Under the pieces are notes generated by a model. It searched no databases. It saw only the letters and a program-made list of their open reading frames with translations, and was not told the origin of the DNA. Shown here one piece after another: positions 2,837 to 34,857 of a stretch of DNA of 34,857 nt (the first letter of the stretch is position 1; each line of letters opens with the position of its first letter). This DNA is from Deltaproteobacteria bacterium. GTDB taxonomy: Bacteria > Myxococcota_A > UBA9042 > DTJE01. The stretch is taken from positions 1 to 34,857 of the forward strand of contig JAKPTZ010000021.1 of assembly GCA_029555025.1 (NCBI GenBank). The letters run 5' to 3'. The position numbers and the translations under genes are program-made.

Positions 2837-4519
2837 TCAGACCAGCACGAAAGCCTTGATATAGACGACGGAAGGCGTCAGCAGTATGGTTACCGTCGTC
2901 GTTTCGCCATAGGTCACCTGATAGTCGATGCCCTCGGTCAGCAGGTTGCCTTCAATGTCGTAAACCGCCAGGCCGTCGTAAAGTTCCGGCAGCGGCAGCA
3001 GCAGTTCGTGGCTGGTGTCTTCGCCACCGGGGCCATCGACGCCCCACGAAGTATCGGGGAAGTCACGGCCGTCCCATGCGGCCACCGTCAGGCGTCCCCG
3101 GTCGTCCATGAAAGCAAGCGCATATACGTCGTTCGGCAGTTCGAGCGCGGTCGAGACGTCGCGGGCGAACCGCATCTCGCCAAGGTTGTCGGCAAGCGCC
3201 TTCAACGCCGCCCAGGCCGGCTTGGCCCTGCGCACGGTCCCGTCCCCGCCGGTCCAGCCGAAGAGCCCGAAGTATGATTCGTGCGGCCGAACGCCTTCCG
3301 TGGTCGGATATCCGTCCCAGAAGGTGTACCACAGGTATTTTTCGACCCCGTCACGGATGGCAAGCAGGATGCTGCGGGGCAGGAAAAGGCCAACCTGTTG
3401 CTCGGTCAGGTCGTATGAAGGCCAGCCCTGTTCCGAGATGATGACCGACTTGTCCGGACACCCGATTTCATCAAGGATCCCTTTAAGTATCGCGGTCTGC
3501 CACGACTGCCCTTGGAAGGCCAGGGTGTCGTCGATGATGACGTCGCGTTCCGGCGGGTCGTACTGCATGAACGTGTATGGATGGAACGCGACCACCTCGA
3601 AGTACTCGCAGATGTCGGGATGGGCCGCGGCGACCCGCTTCAGGAAGCCATAGCGGTCGGCAAGGTCGGTTTCGGCGTCGTACGAAGCAATGCCGCCGAA
3701 CGCCACGCGGGCTTCGGGGCACGCGCCCGTGATGGCCTGGTGCGCCGCCTTCAGCATCCGCCCGTAAGCCTCGGCATCCGGTTTTCCCGACCAGAAGCGC
3801 GGAATGTTTTCCTCGTTCCAGATCTCGAAGATGTTGATGTTCTGGCAATACTGGCCCGCGACATGACCGACGTATTCGCCATATTCCGCCATGTCGATTG
3901 AACTGGCGCCGTCGGTCTGGGCCCAGTCGTTTTCGTACCCGAACATCGGGATCACTTCGATTCCGCGCGAAATTGCCATGTCCATCTGGCCTTTCACGTG
4001 ATCCATGTTCCACTGGTCGTCGGCAGGTTCGATCCCGTCCCAGTGGAAGTCCTCGCGAATGGTCGCGCCGCCAAGCTCGACATACTTCTCGAATTCGAAA
4101 TTGCGTTCCGCGTTGTCCCCCGGTCCCTGGTGCATGTGTGTCGAGACCCCGATCGTCGCGCGCACCGTGTTTGGCCCGGTGGGCGCGATGTCTTCCCACA
4201 GCGGCGGCGTCACGGCATCGACGGCGTCGTCGTCGGCAGCGTCGCCCGGGACTTCGCCAGAATCCAGGGGGTCATCATCAAAGCCGTCGTCGCTCGAATC
4301 GTCAGGCAGGTCATCGGCTGTTTCGGCGAAGTCGTCCCCTTCAAGCCTGGCGTCAATGTCGCCCGCGCCGTCCGCACCGTCGTCGGAATGCGCGTCGGCA
4401 ACGATGTCCAACCCGTCGTCCCGCGTCGCATCGGATTGAACCGGGCCGCCGGAACACCCCGCGAGGCTGAAAACGGCGATTGCCGCGACAACGATTGTGA
4501 ATGTGGCATGGATGTTCAT
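2837..4519 (-). CDS. Lipoprotein with a clan GH-A glycoside hydrolase-like domain (GH39/GH5-like)
   Basis: A 560-residue protein with a type II signal peptide (lipobox LAGC, Cys about 22) and a strongly Asp-rich linker to about residue 105. A TIM-barrel-like domain then spans about 120-450. The acid/base Glu is visible at about residue 236 in FEIWNEENIPRFW and the likely nucleophile Glu at about 363 in VIISEQGWPSYD; this arrangement fits retaining clan GH-A enzymes. The last 100 residues look like a beta-sandwich. It should act on a polysaccharide or glycoside outside the cytoplasm, but the substrate cannot be read. It follows the prs-like gene by 53 bases on the same strand and may be co-transcribed. 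Its ribosome site (GGAA) is weak. Which GH family it belongs to is uncertain. Confidence 0.8.
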   Translation of the reverse strand: MNIHATFTIVVAAIAVFSLAGCSGGPVQSDATRDDGLDIVADAHSDDGADGAGDIDARLEGDDFAETADDLPDDSSDDGFDDDPLDSGEVPGDAADDDAVDAVTPPLWEDIAPTGPNTVRATIGVSTHMHQGPGDNAERNFEFEKYVELGGATIREDFHWDGIEPADDQWNMDHVKGQMDMAISRGIEVIPMFGYENDWAQTDGASSIDMAEYGEYVGHVAGQYCQNINIFEIWNEENIPRFWSGKPDAEAYGRMLKAAHQAITGACPEARVAFGGIASYDAETDLADRYGFLKRVAAAHPDICEYFEVVAFHPYTFMQYDPPERDVIIDDTLAFQGQSWQTAILKGILDEIGCPDKSVIISEQGWPSYDLTEQQVGLFLPRSILLAIRDGVEKYLWYTFWDGYPTTEGVRPHESYFGLFGWTGGDGTVRRAKPAWAALKALADNLGEMRFARDVSTALELPNDVYALAFMDDRGRLTVAAWDGRDFPDTSWGVDGPGGEDTSHELLLPLPELYDGLAVYDIEGNLLTEGIDYQVTYGETTTVTILLTPSVVYIKAFVLV

Positions 4520-9194: not shown

Positions 9195-9222
9195 TCCCCG
9201 CTGTTGACAACAGGTGAAATCA

Positions 9223-11202
9223 ATGGACTTTTTTGCCCATCAGGACAAGGCCCGCAAGAAGAGTTTCCAGTTGGTTGTTCTGTTTTCGCTTGCCGTCGTG
9301 TTCATTGTCGTCGCGGTGTATCTGGCCATCATGGGCGTCATGTACTTCGCCTCCGGGAAGATGAGTGAGGTCGGGCCCGAGACCATCCCGTTCGAATGGT
9401 TCAATTTCGAGGTCTTTTACACGGTCGCGATAATTGTCGGCGCGGCGATCGGCGTCGCCACCCTGATGAAGATCCTGGCCTTGAGGCAGGGCGGATCTTA
9501 TGTTGCCGAAGCGCTTGGCGGAACGCTTGTCCAGCCGGACAGCACCGATTCTCTTGAACGACGCCTTCTTAACGTGGTCGAGGAAATCTCGATCGCCGCC
9601 GGCGTCCCGGTGCCGGCGGTCTATGTGATGAAGAAGGAACGCGGGATTAATGCGTTTGCCGCCGGCTGGAGTCCGTCCGACGCCGCGGTCGCCGTCACGG
9701 CCGGTTGCCTGGAGCAGTTGAACCGCGACGAGCTTCAGGGCGTCATCGCCCACGAGTTCAGCCACATCCTGAACGGCGACATGCGCCTGAACATCCGCCT
9801 GATCGGTTTCATCTCCGGGATCATGGTGCTTGCGACGATCGGATACTGGGCGCTTCACATGCGTCCTTCGTCGCGTGGCAAGAACAACGGATACGCCGCG
9901 ATCCTGCTGGCTGCGATTGCCCTGCTGATAATCGGTTACGGCGGCGCCTTCGTCGCCAGGCTGATCCAGAGCGCCGTGTCGCGCCAGCGCGAGTTCCTTG
10001 CGGATTCCAGCGCGGTCCAGTTCACCAGGAATCCGTCCGGCATCGCGAATGCGTTGAAAAAGATCGGCGGGTACGAAATCCACAGCACCATCCATTCGCC
10101 TGCGTCCAGGGAAGTGCGTCACATGTTCTTCGGCCCGTCGGACGTGGTCTCCATGCTCGGCTCGGTTCTGGCGACACATCCCCCCATCGATGAAAGGATT
10201 AAGCGTCTTGATCCGTCCTTTGATGGAGACTATTCGAAAAGGAGCGTGCTGCCGGACTTGCAGGCGCCGGAAGCCGCGGCCGGACAGGCCGGCGTGGCGG
10301 GAATGGTTGGAGCCGCCGCCTTCGGTTCGGCAGGTGCGTCCGCCCGCGCCGTTTCTTCCGGTTCGCCAACCTTGCCGACGTCGGCGGAATCGGTTGCCGG
10401 AATGGGAGTCCTGACACAGGAACATATCGACGCCGGCGCGGCACTTCTGGCCGCCATCCCGGATCGTCTGCGACAGGGCGTTTCAGAGCCGATGAGTGCT
10501 TGCGCGACCATCGCGGCGCTTCTTCTCGATTCGGATCCCGATGTCCGTTCGCGTCAGCTTGAGTCCGTCGCCCGTGAATTCTCGCCGGCCCTTGCCCGGG
10601 AAACGGGGCTTGTCGCGAAGGACGTGGCCTCGATTGATCCCGCTTTCCGCCTTCCTCTGGTGGATCTTGCGCTGCCGGCGCTTCGCCGCCTGTCGCGTCC
10701 GCAGTACGCGGCCTTTTCACGGACGCTTATCGAACTTGTGCGCGCGGACGAAAACGTCACCCTGTTCGAGTTCTGCCTTCAGAAGGTCGTCGAATTCAGG
10801 TTGTTCCAGGCGTTCGACGCCGCAAGCCGCGGTTACCGCGCCGTTTCCCCCAGGGAATTCATCGGTGATGCGGTCGTTCTTCTTTCGGCTGTTGCCAGGG
10901 CCGGTTCCAGTGTCGAAGACGACGCCCGCCGGTCGTTTGAAGCCGCCGTTTCAACGCTCTTCATGGGCCGTGTCCCCGCCGGGGTCGGGCCGTTGCAGAA
11001 GCCCGGCATCGACCAGCTTGACCAGGCATTCCAGAGGTTCTCGATGGCCCCGATGAAGATAAGACGGCAGGTATTTCTTGCCGTTTCCGACTGCGTGCTG
11101 CACGACGGCCATGTGACCGTTCAGGAATCCGAACTGATTCGCGCCGTTGCCTATTGCATGGGATTGCCGCTTCCGCCTTTCGTGGTCGGACAGGCCGCCT
11201 GA
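9223..11202 (+). CDS. M48 family (HtpX-like) membrane zinc protease with a long C-terminal extension
   Basis: A zinc metalloprotease with hydrophobic segments near residues 15-45, 65-85, 190-215 and 230-250. The HEFSH site has zinc ligands His177 and His181, with catalytic Glu178 and a third ligand Glu257 in REFLADSSAV, matching HtpX. The ATG at 9223 is preferred because AGGTGA precedes it by 5 bases; a GTG at 9214 is possible. HtpX proteins are about 290 aa, whereas this one is 659: after the protease there is an Ala/Gly-rich linker (about 340-400) and a helical region. Its last 60 residues (FLAVSDCVLHDGHVTVQESE, then CMGLPLPPF) resemble a TerB-like fold. The LemA neighbour supports a role in cleaving misfolded or damaged membrane proteins. 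Confidence 0.92.
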   Translation: MDFFAHQDKARKKSFQLVVLFSLAVVFIVVAVYLAIMGVMYFASGKMSEVGPETIPFEWFNFEVFYTVAIIVGAAIGVATLMKILALRQGGSYVAEALGGTLVQPDSTDSLERRLLNVVEEISIAAGVPVPAVYVMKKERGINAFAAGWSPSDAAVAVTAGCLEQLNRDELQGVIAHEFSHILNGDMRLNIRLIGFISGIMVLATIGYWALHMRPSSRGKNNGYAAILLAAIALLIIGYGGAFVARLIQSAVSRQREFLADSSAVQFTRNPSGIANALKKIGGYEIHSTIHSPASREVRHMFFGPSDVVSMLGSVLATHPPIDERIKRLDPSFDGDYSKRSVLPDLQAPEAAAGQAGVAGMVGAAAFGSAGASARAVSSGSPTLPTSAESVAGMGVLTQEHIDAGAALLAAIPDRLRQGVSEPMSACATIAALLLDSDPDVRSRQLESVAREFSPALARETGLVAKDVASIDPAFRLPLVDLALPALRRLSRPQYAAFSRTLIELVRADENVTLFEFCLQKVVEFRLFQAFDAASRGYRAVSPREFIGDAVVLLSAVARAGSSVEDDARRSFEAAVSTLFMGRVPAGVGPLQKPGIDQLDQAFQRFSMAPMKIRRQVFLAVSDCVLHDGHVTVQESELIRAVAYCMGLPLPPFVVGQAA

Positions 11203-23025: not shown

Positions 23026-24780
23026 TTATTTCGGCGTTTCAGCCAGATCCAGCGGGGCGTACGGGGCCGCGGCGGTTCTTTCAAGCACGCCGGCGTAATC
23101 TTCGTCCACCGTGAAGAATTCGGTGTTCAGCTTTTCGAATGCCCGGTTGATCGTGTCGAAGTCGTTGTCCCTGACGTCAAGGCGTTCTCCGGCGCCATCG
23201 GTCGGGTACAGGACTCCCCACAGGGAAGGCGCGTCGAAGTACTTCCAGCTCCACGGGGCCCAGTGGACGCCGCGCCTGTTCATCATTTCAAGGACGCCTT
23301 CCATGGCGTCAAGTTGCCACCTGTCCGCCGGATCGTCGGTCGAGTTGAAGGCGTTTGGCCCATATACGTTGAATTCGCCGTAAAACAGTGGACAGTCGAA
23401 GCGATCCCAGACCTTCTCAAGTTGCGTGATCTCCTCTTCCATCATCCGGATATGGTTTGCCGCATCCTTTCCGCCCGGATAGTCGTGAAACGACATCATT
23501 GCGTTATCCCAGCCGTACTCAGCCGGCCCGGCCAGTGTTGACATGGCCAGGAAGCCGTCTTCAAGCATGATGATGTGTTCGGTGTTTTCCTGGCGGATTG
23601 CGGAAATGATTGCCTGGTGGGCGGCCAGGTAGCGTTCATGGTCGGGTGCCCCGGCCGGTTCGTTAAGAAGGTCGAGCACCGCCACGTGGGGCTCGCCCTT
23701 GAAATACCGCGCCATCGCCTGCCACAACCTGGCAGTCTTGTCGATGCAGTCCTGTCGGGTGAAGAACTGGCCGCCGTTTTCAAGGCCCTGGTGCCACCAC
23801 GGGCTCTGGCCGCCCGGCGCTCCGTGCAGATCAAGCATGATGTAAAGACGGTACTTCCGGGCCCACTCGATGACCTGATCCAGCCGGCGCCATCCTTCAA
23901 GGACGAAAGCGTTTTCACCGTCGATGTCGGTTTCGAGTGTCTGGTACCAGACGGGAACGCGGACCAGGTTCATACCCATCTCCGCGACAAGCTCGAAGTC
24001 CCGCTCGGTGATGTAGTTGTCCTGGAAGGTCGTTCTGAGTTCGTTCATGCCGTCGTATCCGAAACGCTTCGTCAGCCAGTTCCACAGGGCGCGCTCCTCG
24101 AAAATCCATGGCTCCGAATCGAACCAGGCCCAGAATGCCCCGGATCCGGCTTCAAGACCCGGCTTCATGTTTTCTTCCATGTACTGTCGCCATTCCTGGA
24201 CGCACAGCCATGCGGCCTTCAACTGGAAACTGCAGTCGATGATGTTGATGGCCTGCGCCTCACCGAAAAGTTCCGCCACGCCGAATTCGACGGCCTTGTC
24301 CGGCATCATCCCCAGCAGTTCTTCCTGGCCCAGGACACCGATTCCGGCAAGCCAGCTTTCCATCATCAGCCAGCTTCCAAAGTTCATGCCGCGAAGCATC
24401 ACCTTGTTCCCTTCGTCATCGACGATGTCGCGTCCTTCAACATGAAGCAGGGGAAGCGTGGCCTTCTCGATCGGTTCCGGTCTTGTCGGGAACGGCTGGC
24501 TGTTCGGCCTGCAGTCGGCCTGGACCGGCCCCATGAAGACTTCATTGCCGTTGTCCGCCGCATCCGCCCCGTCAGCCGCGTCGTTCTGGGCCGAGTCGCC
24601 GTGCCCCTGGTCGGCGTGCACATCCATCATGTCGGTCTCGTCGCCCGTGTCGTCCCCCGTCATCGCGTCCGCTTCGGTGTCGGCAAGGGATGCATCGGTT
24701 TCCTGGACCGAGCCGCCGCACCCGGAAATGAAAAGGAACGTCGCGGTTGCAAGCATCGCCGTCAGTAAGCTCTTAATCAT
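23026..24780 (-). CDS. Lipoprotein with a glycoside hydrolase family 5-like domain
   Basis: A 584-residue lipoprotein (lipobox ISGC) with an Asp-rich linker to about residue 75 and a GH5-type TIM barrel from about 105. N-terminal strand RGMNFGSWL, then MNLVRVPVWYQTLE and MLDLHGAPGGQSPWW are typical of GH5. The acid/base Glu374 is in LDLLNEPAG and the nucleophile Glu469 in PLFYGEFNVY. AAGGGG precedes the ATG by 8 bases. An insertion of about 100 residues (about 150-260) follows the first strand. GH5 covers cellulases, mannanases and exo-1,3-glucanases; the substrate here cannot be told. It likely acts at the cell surface. Confidence 0.88.
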   Translation of the reverse strand: MIKSLLTAMLATATFLFISGCGGSVQETDASLADTEADAMTGDDTGDETDMMDVHADQGHGDSAQNDAADGADAADNGNEVFMGPVQADCRPNSQPFPTRPEPIEKATLPLLHVEGRDIVDDEGNKVMLRGMNFGSWLMMESWLAGIGVLGQEELLGMMPDKAVEFGVAELFGEAQAINIIDCSFQLKAAWLCVQEWRQYMEENMKPGLEAGSGAFWAWFDSEPWIFEERALWNWLTKRFGYDGMNELRTTFQDNYITERDFELVAEMGMNLVRVPVWYQTLETDIDGENAFVLEGWRRLDQVIEWARKYRLYIMLDLHGAPGGQSPWWHQGLENGGQFFTRQDCIDKTARLWQAMARYFKGEPHVAVLDLLNEPAGAPDHERYLAAHQAIISAIRQENTEHIIMLEDGFLAMSTLAGPAEYGWDNAMMSFHDYPGGKDAANHIRMMEEEITQLEKVWDRFDCPLFYGEFNVYGPNAFNSTDDPADRWQLDAMEGVLEMMNRRGVHWAPWSWKYFDAPSLWGVLYPTDGAGERLDVRDNDFDTINRAFEKLNTEFFTVDEDYAGVLERTAAAPYAPLDLAETPK

Positions 24781-24850
24781 TCAAGACCCCTTCGAAGATT
24801 CACTGAAACGAAAAAGTGGGTGAGGTACTTCAAAGTCACCCGCTGTATTT

Positions 24851-24915: not shown

Positions 24916-26043
24916 ATGAAGCTGCTTGAATCACTGGCACTTGCCGCCATCCTCGCCGTTGGCTGCGGGAATAGTCCGTCCGATTTCGACAATGGTTTCC
25001 CGGTCGATATCGTCATTCCGGTCGATGTGCCGTCCGATGTGATCGGCGTGGACACCGCCGTTCCGGACCAGGGTGGTCGCGACCAGGGGCAGCAGGATCC
25101 CGGTGGGTCAGGCGACACGGTGGTTCACAGGGATCTGCCATCCCTTGATCTTCCCGACACCGAATGCGGCGTCACGCTGGACAATTATTTCGACATGCTG
25201 ATCGACGCGCTGGCCGGCTTTTATGCAAGGTGCAGTCCCGGCGACCGCATCAATTTCTGGCAGAATCCGAAGAATGCCCGCTGGATGCTCGAGGGCCAGA
25301 TCCGACCCATGGAAGTGGAGTACCGGGTCAGAATCGACAAGGGCGCCCTGACACTGGACAAGACCGTTGCATGCGCATACCTGGGGCTTTTGAAGGACGG
25401 GGACTGCAACGCGACCAGAACGATGAACAGCGGGCTTGTCGGGACTGCCGGGCCAGGTGGCGCCTGCGGCGTCGACGAGGAATGTCCGGACGGTTACTTC
25501 TGTCGTTTCCCGAATGCGACGACGTGCCTGGGTGAATGCACGGCAAGGGTCGGGGCCGGTCAGATTTGTGATTTCGGCGGATGCCAGCCCGGTTTTGCCT
25601 GCAGGCTGAACGATGCCGACGAATTCAGGTGCGTGGCCTCGTATTACATCAGGCAGCCCGGCGACGACTGCGACCCGGAAACAGACGTCTGTGCGCAGAG
25701 CTTCTGTGATGGAAGCTTGTGTCACGAGCTTCCCGGCCCGGGAACCCAGTGTTCACCCGGTTCATACTGCCGCGACGGCTGGTGTGACAGGAACCTGAAC
25801 ATCTGCAAGCCGTACGTCGGCGCCGGGGGAAGCTGTGAAACATGGACTTCCTGCGAGGACGGCATGTACTGTCTTCCGTTCCCGGACGAAAAGTGCGCCA
25901 CCAGGTTGACCCTGGGCGCCCAGTGCGACCCGGCCAGGAATTCTTTCGACTTTCCCGGCGTGTCCCTGGCCTGCGCCAGCGGCCTTTGCGACAAGTTGAA
26001 CAACGTCTGCACCGATTCCGCGCCGGCATCGGCGTGTAACTGA
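24916..26043 (+). CDS. Cys-rich lipoprotein of unknown function
   Basis: A 375-residue lipoprotein. AAGGAAGG lies just before the ATG at 24916; the lipobox is LAVGC and the linker up to about residue 75 is Asp/Val/Pro-rich with DQGGRDQG. A helical segment (about 85-160) precedes a Cys-rich half (about 175-375) of repeated small modules such as CPDGYFC, CQPGFAC, CSPGSYC and CEDGMYC, with Gly and paired Cys. These resemble Dickkopf-like or EGF-like disulfide modules common in Deltaproteobacteria surface proteins. No catalytic motif is seen. The next Cys-rich gene starts 22 bases later and is probably in the same transcript. Confidence 0.8.
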   Translation: MKLLESLALAAILAVGCGNSPSDFDNGFPVDIVIPVDVPSDVIGVDTAVPDQGGRDQGQQDPGGSGDTVVHRDLPSLDLPDTECGVTLDNYFDMLIDALAGFYARCSPGDRINFWQNPKNARWMLEGQIRPMEVEYRVRIDKGALTLDKTVACAYLGLLKDGDCNATRTMNSGLVGTAGPGGACGVDEECPDGYFCRFPNATTCLGECTARVGAGQICDFGGCQPGFACRLNDADEFRCVASYYIRQPGDDCDPETDVCAQSFCDGSLCHELPGPGTQCSPGSYCRDGWCDRNLNICKPYVGAGGSCETWTSCEDGMYCLPFPDEKCATRLTLGAQCDPARNSFDFPGVSLACASGLCDKLNNVCTDSAPASACN

Positions 26044-26065: not shown

Positions 26066-28774
26066 ATGAGGTTTCATCTCGCAATTCCGGCAATTTTCGC
26101 TGTCGCGTCGCTGTGCTTCGTTACCGGGTGTTCCGGTGGCGGCGTTGCGGTCGATGCGCCTGGGGCGGACGATTCGGAATGGTTCGACGTGGTATCCGAT
26201 GAAGGCACTGAAGATGCCGGGATCGAAGATGCAGGGCTCGACGCCAGGCCGGATCAGGGGGGTCAGGACGTCGGTGAAGCCGATAACGGGCAGGGTGAAT
26301 CATATCCCAACGCATGCCGGGGCTTCGACCAGCCGTCGGGGACTTCGTGCACCGGAACCAGCGCGGTCGGTTGCTGCGACGACCTTGGCCGGGTGGTCTG
26401 GTGCCAGGACAACTCGCTGTACTGCTTTGACTGCAACCTGAATCCGAAGGACAGCCAGTCGTGCGGATGGCGTGTCGTGGAAAAGTTCGCCGGATACGAT
26501 TGCGGCGGCAGCGGTGCCGATCCGGCAGGCATATTCCCCCTTGAATGCGGCGATACGTGTATTCCCGACTGCGAGGGCCGCGACTGCGGTTCGGACGGCT
26601 GTGGCGGTTATTGCGGCACTTGCGGTGAGGGGCTTCTGTGCGAATCCGGTCGGTGCGTGCAGCCGGGCGCCGAATACCCGGACGTCTGCCGCGGCTTCCA
26701 GGAGCCGAGCGGCGGGACGTGTCCCGGTTACATAAGCACCTATGGATGCTGCGATGCCCAGGGCAGGGTCGTCTGGTGCGATCGCGGTCGGATTTACTGC
26801 AACGATTGCAGCCGTAACCCGGCCCCGCAGAATTCGTGCGGCTGGTTTGAGATGGAGGCCTTTCGCGGATACGACTGCGGCGGATCCGGCGAGGATCCCG
26901 AAGGTCTGGCGATACGCGAATGCGGCGCGACGTGCCAGCCGGAGTGTGATGGAGCCCAGTGCGGCCCTGACGGTTGCGGCGGGCTTTGCGGCGCCTGCGT
27001 GCAGGATCGCATATGCAGCGCCGGGCAGTGCGTCGTGCCGGCCGGCGGCGTGCTGACAGGTTCCTTGAAGTATCAGGTAATTCTTCCCGAATACGATGGC
27101 ACGGCCGTCAATCTCGGGCAGACGGTCGTCAGGGATGCGGCGCGCGTCCCGGTTGCCGTGGTCGATTCGTCCGGTGCGGTGATTGGCCGGGCATCCGTCG
27201 GTGAAGACGGCACCTTCCGGGTGGGACTGGAAAAGGCCCTGAAAGGTGGTGAAACGCTCGTCGTCACGGCGGGCTACATGCCGGCTGGGCTGATGCTGGT
27301 GGCCGTCCTTCGTCCCGAGCCGGTCGTCGAGCCGGGCTCGTTCTCTTCGCCGATGTGGTCCTGGAGCATGCCGGTCACCGGGATGGACGTCGGCACGAAG
27401 ACGATAACCGTTGAACAGGGTTCCGGCGCGATCCACGTGTTCAGGATGGCCGTCCTTGGCATGGATCGGATCCTTGAACACCTGGCGAAGACGACGTACG
27501 GGTTGCCAGGCCTGGCTCTTCTCTGGGCTCCGGACGCGCCGTGGAGCGTCGGACTGGCCTTCGGCAAGGTTGCCCAGAAGATCCAGGACGGGCCGTACAT
27601 GCCCCAGTCCATCTTCGTGGGCGGCGGCGACGGCACTTCCGGTCCATGGGGCGAGGCGGTCATCCTTCACGAGTTCGGTCATTACATCACGAACAATTTC
27701 ACGAAGCACGATTCGCCCGGCGGAAGCCATTACGTCGGTGAACTGATTTCACCGCCGTTTGCGTGGGCCGAGGCGTTCTCGAACTTCTTCGGCGTATCGA
27801 CCCAGTCGCAACTGGCCGGAGCCCCGAACGGCCGGATGTGGCTGATTGTCGATTACGGAAAGGGCGCGAAGGCCGGATGGTGGATTGACTACGCGTCAGG
27901 GACGAGTACCGTCGGGGGCTTCAAGCAGCCGGTCGCGGCCGAAGGCATGACCCAGTACCTGGACGAGAATTACCTGACATCCATGTTGTGGGATCTGTGG
28001 GACGGGCTGGAGTTCGCGGACGACGACGCCGACGGAACCGCCCTTGGAACCGGAAGGTTCCTGAAGGCGATGGTAACGGATCGATTCCTTGACATGAACC
28101 GTGGCGCGGTCGGGGTCGATTTTGTCGATTTTGTCGATTCGGTTCTTTGTGCCGAGCCCGGCCTGAAGACTTCAGTGACCGCGACAATAAAGGACTTCCT
28201 GAAGTTTCCTTATGACGGCCAGCCGTCCTGCCCGGCCTCGGCCGCCGTCGCGGCGGTTCCTGTCACCATGCCGGCCCAGGCCGGCGGCGTATCGGCGAAG
28301 GCGGCGTGGCCGCGCAATCCGTCCATGACGTGGGCGATGGGCAGGGACGCCCGCTTTGGCGGCGATGCATCGCTTGACGGTTCGTTAAGGCCTCCGCTGC
28401 AAGTCGAAGTGTCGGGAATGAAGGTCGGCGACGAAGTCGTCCTTACGGCGACGGTAACCGTGACACCCGGCCTTCGTTCGGCCCCGGTTCTTGCGTTATC
28501 CCTGCCCGAAGGGGCGACCCTGGTCAAGGGCGCGCCCGTCGAACGCCTGGACATTTCCCAGGGGGGAATGGTGCTTGCACGTACCTTCCGCGTCAGGGCC
28601 CTGAACGGTCAGGTCGCTGTCGCCGTGTCCGCGGGTGACGATAAGTCCGGCGCGATGGCGCGGGCCGCCTGGCCGGCCCTCGCTGAAGTGCGGTCTTCTG
28701 GAATCGGCCTGGCACGTCCCATTGTCCCGGCCGTCATCGATGGAGTCCGCCACACCACGGCCATACCATTCTGA
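26066..28774 (+). CDS. Lipoprotein with two 18-Cys modules and a zinc-metalloprotease-like domain
   Basis: A 902-residue lipoprotein (lipobox VTGC, Cys22) with GGAGG 5 bases before the ATG. After an Asp-rich linker come two tandem modules of about 124 residues (about 80-328), each with 18 Cys in the same order and ending in a DGCGGxCGxC motif. Next is a beta domain (about 330-455), then a protease-like domain with HEFGHYI (His535, His539, Glu536) and a probable third ligand Glu569 in AWAEAFSNFF, the spacing of gluzincins. The last 125 residues look like an Ig-type domain (VSGMKVGDEVVLTATVTVTP). It probably acts at the cell surface. I cannot assign a peptidase family. Confidence 0.82.
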   Translation: MRFHLAIPAIFAVASLCFVTGCSGGGVAVDAPGADDSEWFDVVSDEGTEDAGIEDAGLDARPDQGGQDVGEADNGQGESYPNACRGFDQPSGTSCTGTSAVGCCDDLGRVVWCQDNSLYCFDCNLNPKDSQSCGWRVVEKFAGYDCGGSGADPAGIFPLECGDTCIPDCEGRDCGSDGCGGYCGTCGEGLLCESGRCVQPGAEYPDVCRGFQEPSGGTCPGYISTYGCCDAQGRVVWCDRGRIYCNDCSRNPAPQNSCGWFEMEAFRGYDCGGSGEDPEGLAIRECGATCQPECDGAQCGPDGCGGLCGACVQDRICSAGQCVVPAGGVLTGSLKYQVILPEYDGTAVNLGQTVVRDAARVPVAVVDSSGAVIGRASVGEDGTFRVGLEKALKGGETLVVTAGYMPAGLMLVAVLRPEPVVEPGSFSSPMWSWSMPVTGMDVGTKTITVEQGSGAIHVFRMAVLGMDRILEHLAKTTYGLPGLALLWAPDAPWSVGLAFGKVAQKIQDGPYMPQSIFVGGGDGTSGPWGEAVILHEFGHYITNNFTKHDSPGGSHYVGELISPPFAWAEAFSNFFGVSTQSQLAGAPNGRMWLIVDYGKGAKAGWWIDYASGTSTVGGFKQPVAAEGMTQYLDENYLTSMLWDLWDGLEFADDDADGTALGTGRFLKAMVTDRFLDMNRGAVGVDFVDFVDSVLCAEPGLKTSVTATIKDFLKFPYDGQPSCPASAAVAAVPVTMPAQAGGVSAKAAWPRNPSMTWAMGRDARFGGDASLDGSLRPPLQVEVSGMKVGDEVVLTATVTVTPGLRSAPVLALSLPEGATLVKGAPVERLDISQGGMVLARTFRVRALNGQVAVAVSAGDDKSGAMARAAWPALAEVRSSGIGLARPIVPAVIDGVRHTTAIPF
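26303..27046 (+). repeat. Tandem duplication of a Cys-rich module (about 372 nt units)
   Basis: Two in-frame copies begin at 26303 (YPNACRGF) and 26675 (YPDVCRGF). Both carry CGW, YDCGGSG and DGCGG landmarks and 18 Cys; the second has one extra residue between its second and third Cys. The two copies are clearly diverged, so the duplication is old and retained. Confidence 0.85.
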
Positions 28775-33584: not shown

Positions 33585-33612
33585 CTGCCAAGTTTGCATT
33601 TTTCTGTAAAAT
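33585..33612 (+). promoter_or_regulatory. Candidate promoter for the Cys-rich lipoprotein at the right edge
   Basis: CTGCCA (33585-33590), a 16-base spacer and TAAAAT (33607-33612) precede the ATG at 33641 by about 28 bases. The -10 is good, the -35 moderate. It is divergent from the HEAT-operon promoter in the same AT-rich gap. Confidence 0.4.
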
Positions 33613-33640
33613 GGCAGTCGTACGGCTTTCGGGGTCTCTC

Positions 33641-34857
33641 ATGACGAATAAATTCGGCAGTCTCGCGAAGTTGACGATTGTCGCGATCGCATTCGGCTTT
33701 GCCGCCTGCACGGGCATTACCTCCCAGACGGATGACGGCCCGGCGGATATCCCGGTGGTTATTCCCGATTACGGCCAGGAAGTCGATGTCATCGTGGATC
33801 CGGACGTCAATCCGGGTGACCCCGGTGCAACCGATGCCGACAGGGATCAGGGCGGCGAAGTGACCGATCAGGGCGGCCTGACCGATAACGGCGACGTTCC
33901 CGACGACGGCTCGTCCGTTGATGTGGGCCCGGGCGACGCGGTTGAAGTGACCGACAACGTCGGCACCGACCTGAATGAAACGATCGATGATCAGGGGGTC
34001 GAGCCGGACGGATGCGTTCCCCAGTGCGGCGTGATGGGAACCGAAACCGAACGTGAATGCGGGCCGGATCAATGCGGCGACGACAACGGGTGCGGATTCT
34101 GCTCGACCGGTTATGTCTGCGACCGCGTCGCGGGCAAGTGCATCCTGATGTGCATCCCCAACTGCCTTGAGCTTGGCAAGGTCTGTGGCGACGACGGCTG
34201 CAACGGAAATTGCGGCGAGTGTGGCGACGGATTTGAGTGCGGCCTGGACTTCAAGTGTTATCCGTCCGAATGCAAGTCGGACTGCATCGAAAAGGGCATG
34301 GAGTGCGGCGTTGACAAATGCGGCGACTCCTGCGGCACCTGCGGCGGCAGCGAAGTATGTTCGGCCGGTGGGAAGTGTGCCCCTGGCGCGTGCTTCGGGA
34401 TCGACAAGGAAAGGAATTCGTGCAGTCCGGATTCAAGGTACCTTTTCATCTGCCAGGTTTCGGGACAGCCGCCCACCCAGACAGAATCTCTGCTGAAGAT
34501 CGATTGTTACGCCATAACGGGCGAGCAGTGCGGGACCCGCGGCTGCGACTGCCATTACAATGCGTTTTCCGGGCACAACGAGTGCCTTGAAAAGCCGCCC
34601 TGCGTGCCGGCCTGCGATGGCAAGGAATGCGGCGACGACGGTTGCGGGGGCCTTTGCGTGACTGGCCAGACGGACATTTACGGCTTCTGCAAGGGCGGCT
34701 GGCGCTGCGGCACCGACGACAAGTGTCGTCCGTTCGAGGGCGCCGAATGCCTGTGGGTTGACTGGATGGGTACGTGCTGGGCCGACAACTGGCTTTACCA
34801 GTGCAGCGGCGACGTCCCCGGCCAGGGAAGCATCATCGCCGAAAACTGCACGACTTC
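33641..34857 (+). CDS. Cys-rich lipoprotein, cut by the window edge (N-terminal 405 residues)
   Basis: The frame from the ATG at 33641 stays open to the right edge. The lipobox FAAC is followed by a roughly 100-residue Asp-rich linker with DRDQGGEVTDQGGLTDNGD. From about residue 125 the protein is packed with Cys in repeated modules: CGPDQCGDDNGCGFC, CGDDGCNGNCGEC, CGVDKCGDSCGTC and CGDDGCGGLC, the same type as in the metalloprotease-like lipoprotein at 26066-28774. It is probably a surface protein rich in disulfides. Its C-terminal part, and hence any enzymatic domain, is outside the window. Confidence 0.85.
   Translation, partial: MTNKFGSLAKLTIVAIAFGFAACTGITSQTDDGPADIPVVIPDYGQEVDVIVDPDVNPGDPGATDADRDQGGEVTDQGGLTDNGDVPDDGSSVDVGPGDAVEVTDNVGTDLNETIDDQGVEPDGCVPQCGVMGTETERECGPDQCGDDNGCGFCSTGYVCDRVAGKCILMCIPNCLELGKVCGDDGCNGNCGECGDGFECGLDFKCYPSECKSDCIEKGMECGVDKCGDSCGTCGGSEVCSAGGKCAPGACFGIDKERNSCSPDSRYLFICQVSGQPPTQTESLLKIDCYAITGEQCGTRGCDCHYNAFSGHNECLEKPPCVPACDGKECGDDGCGGLCVTGQTDIYGFCKGGWRCGTDDKCRPFEGAECLWVDWMGTCWADNWLYQCSGDVPGQGSIIAENCTT

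Follow-up and report, generated by a model that had tools for sequence, protein, structure and literature searches.

The intact open reading frame at 26066-28774 (+) of the window, by which we mean the whole stretch of 34,857 nucleotides analysed here, encodes a 902-residue protein that is probably a lipid-anchored, extracytoplasmic zinc endopeptidase with the thermolysin fold, belonging to a Glu-zincin family without a name in the libraries searched. Contig 23 of the source genome (3.49 Mb, 158 contigs, 97.6% complete), that of an uncultured relative of the myxobacteria, is covered in full by the window, and the layout of the protein and of its upstream neighbour is given in Table 1. Searches of the window with PADLOC and Rfam returned no match, and promoter and terminator scans performed no better on the window than on shuffles.

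Table 1. Features of the putative protease gene and its upstream neighbour, in window positions.
Feature	Position	Strand	Basis
Cys-rich lipoprotein gene, 22 bases upstream of the protease gene	24916..26043	+	same pair in L051, the closest relative
Lipoprotein signal peptide, residues 1-22, lipobox V-T-G-C22	26066..26131	+	read from translation
Low-complexity acidic linker, residues 23-79	26132..26302	+	read from translation
Module 1, residues 80-203: unit A, 10 Cys (80-164), and unit B, 8 Cys (165-203)	26303..26674	+	module alignment, unit profiles
Module 2, residues 204-327: unit A and unit B, same 18 Cys	26675..27046	+	module alignment, unit profiles
Predicted thermolysin-fold domain, residues 328-727, with a helical catalytic part after a beta-rich one	27047..28246	+	model, PDB matches
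HEFGH, residues 535-539: putative zinc ligands H535/H539, putative catalytic E536	27668..27682	+	conservation; aligned with M36 HEYTH
GGSH, residues 552-555: family-specific loop with His555	27719..27730	+	conservation
AWAE, residues 566-569: E569, putative third zinc ligand	27761..27772	+	conservation; M36 alignment; model helix 236-257
Glu634, invariant, opens later helix	27965..27967	+	31/31; model residue 307, helix 307-318
C-terminal region, residues 728-902, without family match	28247..28774	+	Pfam search

The peptidase domain was evident in its predicted fold. A model of residues 328-727, built with 27 aligned sequences, had a pLDDT of 93.1 and a pTM of 0.92, and all 9 of its Foldseek matches at E<=1e-3 were M4 enzymes (aureolysin, vibriolysin, thermolysin and neutral proteases). 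The VIA comparison gave a Z of 20.4 to ProA (rmsd 3.8 and 9% identity over 294 aligned residues) and of 20.2 to thermolysin, followed by M36 enzymes (Z 17.9 and 17.3) and M1 aminopeptidases (Z about 9-11), and sequence identity to the structurally matched solved peptidases was about 10%. The first 126 residues of the model are also matched by transthyretin-like sandwiches (Z about 9), and the only Pfam match of the protein, a weak one to the Ig-like Big_6 family (PF17936, E 1.2e-6), falls in the beta part. Helix 203-218 of the model (adding 327 gives protein numbering) carries H535 and H539, and the long helix that follows it, 236-257, carries E569; in the model, this layout over two helices is that of a Glu-zincin, and judged from the predicted structure a zinc site in the domain is very likely. 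The preliminary description, made from the letters of the DNA, had proposed a beta domain followed by a gluzincin-like HEFGH...E site and had called for structure prediction of the zinc geometry. The model bears this out, with a beta-rich stretch ahead of HEFGH and Glu569 at the residue numbers and boundaries first given, matches to M4 and M36 enzymes, and zinc residues that align with those of M36. That description had also found the peptidase family not evident, and libraries agree: peptidase models of Pfam and NCBIfam all stay below their cut-offs, no NCBIfam model comes near the cut-off for the window protein, and searches of PDB sequences with either the protein or a profile picked up nothing but Ig-like or adhesin repeats, and no peptidase.

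To evaluate conservation, we used an alignment (A1) of 31 sequences, the window protein included, which covers 31 of 45 places, namely those given loci together with the paralog in the source genome. E536, E569 and E634 are present in 31/31 sequences, H555 in 30/31, and H535 and H539 in 29/31, and none of these six residues varies among the 29 members in which both zinc histidines are retained. The GGxH loop that contains H555 is nearly invariant as well. In the two remaining members (L025 and L034) neither zinc histidine is left (R/K-E-x-x-K); with the conserved residues of the fold still in place, they look like dead enzymes retained for another use, and their loci apparently coincide with L074 and L077. 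Since one of the two also lacks H555, there is a hint that this residue serves the zinc site. Cys722 is invariant and Cys695 occurs in 29/31 members, and a Cys695-Cys722 disulfide is likely given this pattern of conservation. The Asp of the ExxxD motif (position 573) is D in only 1/31 members, being mostly T, S or N (N in the window protein), and no His after position 555 reaches 80% conservation in the 31 sequences. At the place of thermolysin His231, M36 VHADGE aligns to QYLDE with a one-residue ambiguity, and because of this our claim is limited to there being no conserved downstream His. No Pfam match to an FTP/PepSY prodomain was found anywhere in the full window protein.

These residues bear on the family to which the protein belongs. 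As described in an excerpt of PMC3890501, MA(E) peptidases carry HExxH with two His ligands and a Glu third ligand that is C-terminal to HExxH; here, we found the His pair of HEFGH in 29/31 members, E569 in 31/31, and a zincin fold in the model, with zinc ligation by these residues presumed. The M36 features given in an excerpt of PMC6117016 are ExxxD after HExxH and an FTP prodomain, and thermolysin His231 is the downstream catalytic His in an excerpt of PMC10343166. Because the MA(E) features are present and the M36 and M4 features are not, we placed the protein in its own Glu-zincin family, and the best reading of the peptidase is a distinct family, unnamed in the libraries searched, with M36 and M4 as its nearest neighbours. 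Literature searches did not find the family, although this is no proof of its being unpublished.

Profile comparisons with M36, M4, M1 and M9 sets identified M36 as the closest of these, with a probability of 86% using alignment A4 and 81% using A1; HEFGH aligned with M36 HEYTH and, using A1, E569 aligned with the M36 Glu. A scan of the GTDB species collection yielded 28 loci from relatives; A4 joins 26 of these to the window, leaving out the fragments L064 and L076, and it overlaps A1, many loci being the same places. The M36 set comprised 18 of 20 loci from related genomes (L109 was kept apart, and L110 is without HExxH). Probabilities were 24% and 66% for M1, 7-8% for M4, whose set held 3 of 11 sequences (the remainder consisted of wrong frames, sequences already in the M36 set, and L134, which was left out), and below 1% for both M9 and the reversed controls. 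Neither M36 (PF02128) nor M4 (PF02868) had a match in the window protein, in the 31 A1 members, or at the locus in a genome-wide search, and M1 (PF01433) had none in the window protein or the 31 members. The Pfam search of these members matched 12 families overall. Sub-threshold peptidase matches to M43 (2/31), Reprolysin_4 (1/31) and DUF5700 (1/31) were discarded, as was M9 collagenase, since PF01752 matched weakly (best E 0.0053) in 3/31 members, was absent from the window protein, and showed profile similarity below 1%. The M9 set was fetched by PF01752 and includes one wrong frame (L166). The loci that pass the M9 cut-off (L158-L169) have a strongly conserved NNSMQLYFHELVHAMMGE...WPIWFDEG site, and their proteins may be yet another Glu-zincin family.

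The fold matches, the 86% probability against Myxococcota M36 sequences, and the weak match (E 0.025) of two members to the NCBIfam model of rhombosortase-dependent M36 would also suit a very divergent member of M36 (or M4) without a family of its own. We consider this unlikely, since M36 and M4 score 96% against each other in the same profile test, above the score of either with the window's family, and since PF02128 and PF02868 are silent at the locus and ExxxD, the downstream His and the FTP prodomain were not found. Compared with the M36 fungalysins of MEROPS, the window protein shares the predicted fold, the HExxH and a Glu third ligand after a short loop, but differs in lacking a PF02128 match, the ExxxD Asp (absent in 30/31) and, within the window protein, an FTP/PepSY prodomain, and its loop, with GGxH, is longer than in the M36 set. 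The MEROPS M4 enzymes thermolysin, vibriolysin and ProA are its best structural matches (Z 19-20, and all 9 Foldseek matches), but M4 gives no profile support, on 3 sequences only, and the conserved downstream His is not seen. The second zinc His and the Glu are 29 residues apart here, and this spacing is shorter in thermolysin. With MEROPS M1 aminopeptidases the protein shares the Glu-zincin core, at the Z and profile values given above, but only about 210 residues superpose and there is no PF01433 match. A distinct Glu-zincin family stays our preferred assignment.

The peptidase domain was present in 27/52 related genomes, the source genome included (single-sequence search, E<=0.001), and in 52/188 genomes drawn from the phylum (profile search, E<=1e-5). 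The depositors' labels of the 28 loci from the GTDB scan are Myxococcota, Myxococcales, Kofleriaceae, Deltaproteobacteria, Oligoflexales and uncultured proteobacterium; having been run with two short peptide patterns, the scan favours close relatives and is no proof of confinement to the phylum. The closest relative (L051) has a peptidase 68% identical to that of the window, and the source genome holds one peptidase paralog (C145:8235-9659). A further zinc protease on the contig, at 9214-11202 (+), is an ordinary M48 peptidase (E 8.9e-30).

Ahead of the peptidase domain are the two modules that hold 36 of the protein's 40 cysteines, 18 in each. They had been described as diverged 124-residue modules with all 18 Cys in order, and the alignment of residues 80-203 with 204-327 agrees, having a single one-residue gap, all 18 Cys in register, and 68/122 identical residues (56%, E 5e-46, BLASTP, single comparison). 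A recent duplication was not supported, because module 2 has more in common with the lone L051 module (69%) than with module 1 (55%). Each module is made of two units, A (10 Cys) and B (8 Cys, with the pattern C-x-P-x-C...CG-x-DGCGG-x-CG-x-C), which are also found apart; the profile of unit A was built from matches to the window's own module, and that of B from the motif pattern. The units have no Pfam match, and the motif CGxDGCGG was not found in literature searches. A model of the module, from 11 aligned sequences, had a mean pLDDT of 73.0, and no PDB fold matched it at E<=0.001 (best E 0.94), an absence that says little for a low-confidence model.

A search for the module elsewhere, as the preliminary description had suggested, gave matches to module 1 in 50/52 genomes, many of them to unit B only, and the source genome has more B units in other proteins. 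When the best module match of each genome was taken, the peptidase was present in 3 of the resulting 30 ORFs (the window's included) and absent from 27; these 27 contain 1-5 A units, with unit B too in all but one. Seen from the side of the peptidase, unit A occurs in 4 of the 31 A1 ORFs, B only in 10, and neither in 17, this last number being an upper bound because some ORFs are cut by locus ends. Two A+B pairs are found in the window protein only, numbers among its relatives starting from none. Because the units occur in many non-peptidase proteins, the 18-Cys module is a general building block in the phylum.

These distributions also bear on what the modules do. The preliminary description had pictured a surface protease carrying a tandem disulfide-rich binder of substrate or matrix, which would bring the protease to its target. 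The position of the modules between anchor and protease, their duplication in the window protein, and the ligand binding that is frequent among small disulfide domains in general are consistent with such a binder, but both the occurrence of the peptidase in so few of the ORFs picked by module and the scarcity of complete A+B pairs in A1 argue against it, and we regard it as improbable. A role of the modules as spacer or stalk is more likely than that of a dedicated binder. The eye-catching 18-Cys repeats are not by themselves evidence of a special binder, being common building blocks in these bacteria. Other ORFs with unit B include a second Cys-rich ORF in the window at 33611-34855 (+), which runs off the contig end and is incomplete, with two unit-B repeats and no Pfam match. 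Unit B is also present in both of two adjacent ORFs in another locus (L062:2808-5060 and L062:5064-6488), the second of which is a peptidase relative; contig C250 of G033 has two peptidase matches side by side, apparently the same place as this pair.

The surface part of the earlier proposal fared better. The hydrophobic signal of the protease ends, by direct reading, in FVTGC22, a typical lipobox; the N-terminal signal and lipobox Cys mark the protein as a putative bacterial lipoprotein for which surface anchoring is plausible, a surface position that rests on a lipobox read by eye. The myxobacterial surface protein TraA is described in an excerpt of PMC13184517 as having Cys-rich repeats and being anchored by MYXO-CTERM. 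By this description, Cys-rich repeats on an anchored surface protein would be common to both, and unlike TraA the protease is probably anchored by its N-terminal lipobox.

The lipoprotein gene directly upstream of the protease gene has a homolog in the same position in L051, with 76% identity over query residues 103-407, and the two genes probably form one transcription unit. Among the 52 relatives, a strong match to the lipoprotein was seen only in the source genome and in the one with the closest protease (G003), and two more genomes had weak partial matches. As a guess, this lipoprotein may be a regulator, inhibitor or substrate of the protease. Its signal peptide begins at 24916, so that translation from the listed GTG at 24820 would probably start too early. 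Six other neighbour genes had no match to any of the 28 GTDB-scan loci. Two genes of glycosyl hydrolase family 5 (cellulase-like) lie at 23026-24780 (-) and 2837-4519 (-), the second below the Pfam cut-off.

We propose that lipidated Cys22 fixes the protein in the outer membrane, where the acidic linker and the two A+B disulfide units would act as a stiff, protease-resistant spacer. Residues 328-727 would be the peptidase, in which, on the predicted fold and conservation, H535, H539 and E569 would hold zinc and E536 would activate water. In thermolysin, Tyr157 and His231 provide transition-state or zinc-site support; here, H555 of GGxH probably takes over this support, as suggested by how well it is conserved and by its location in the same loop. 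Likely substrates, again as a guess, would be surface proteins of the cell itself, or proteins from prey or organic matter. Because the ExxxD Asp, a conserved downstream His and a detectable FTP/PepSY prodomain are missing, activity by the standard scheme cannot be taken for granted, and because L025 and L034 are apparently dead, the scaffold may have non-catalytic uses. That the domain is no longer a protease, but a thermolysin-fold scaffold or metal-binding surface protein, would fit the missing support residues and the lost zinc His of two relatives, but is quite unlikely, since H-E-H-E is complete in 29/31 members, whose identity to the window protein is 16-67%, and conservation centres on those residues.

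Taken together, the preferred reading of a zinc endopeptidase can be extended, tentatively, to a distinct Glu-zincin family centred on Myxococcota, in which the thermolysin active site would have been rebuilt, the ExxxD Asp and downstream His having gone and E634 and the GGxH His, which lies in the loop joining the two zinc helices, doing their work, and in which the enzyme, a lipoprotein, would be carried on interchangeable disulfide spacers and act without a linked prodomain, possibly checked by the upstream Cys-rich lipoprotein. These results provide a predicted fold, a likely mechanism and residues to test for a protease family that is unrecognised by Pfam, NCBIfam and PDB sequence searches. 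If it is true that a loop His has replaced the catalytic support of thermolysin, the family would be a natural experiment in rewiring a textbook active site.
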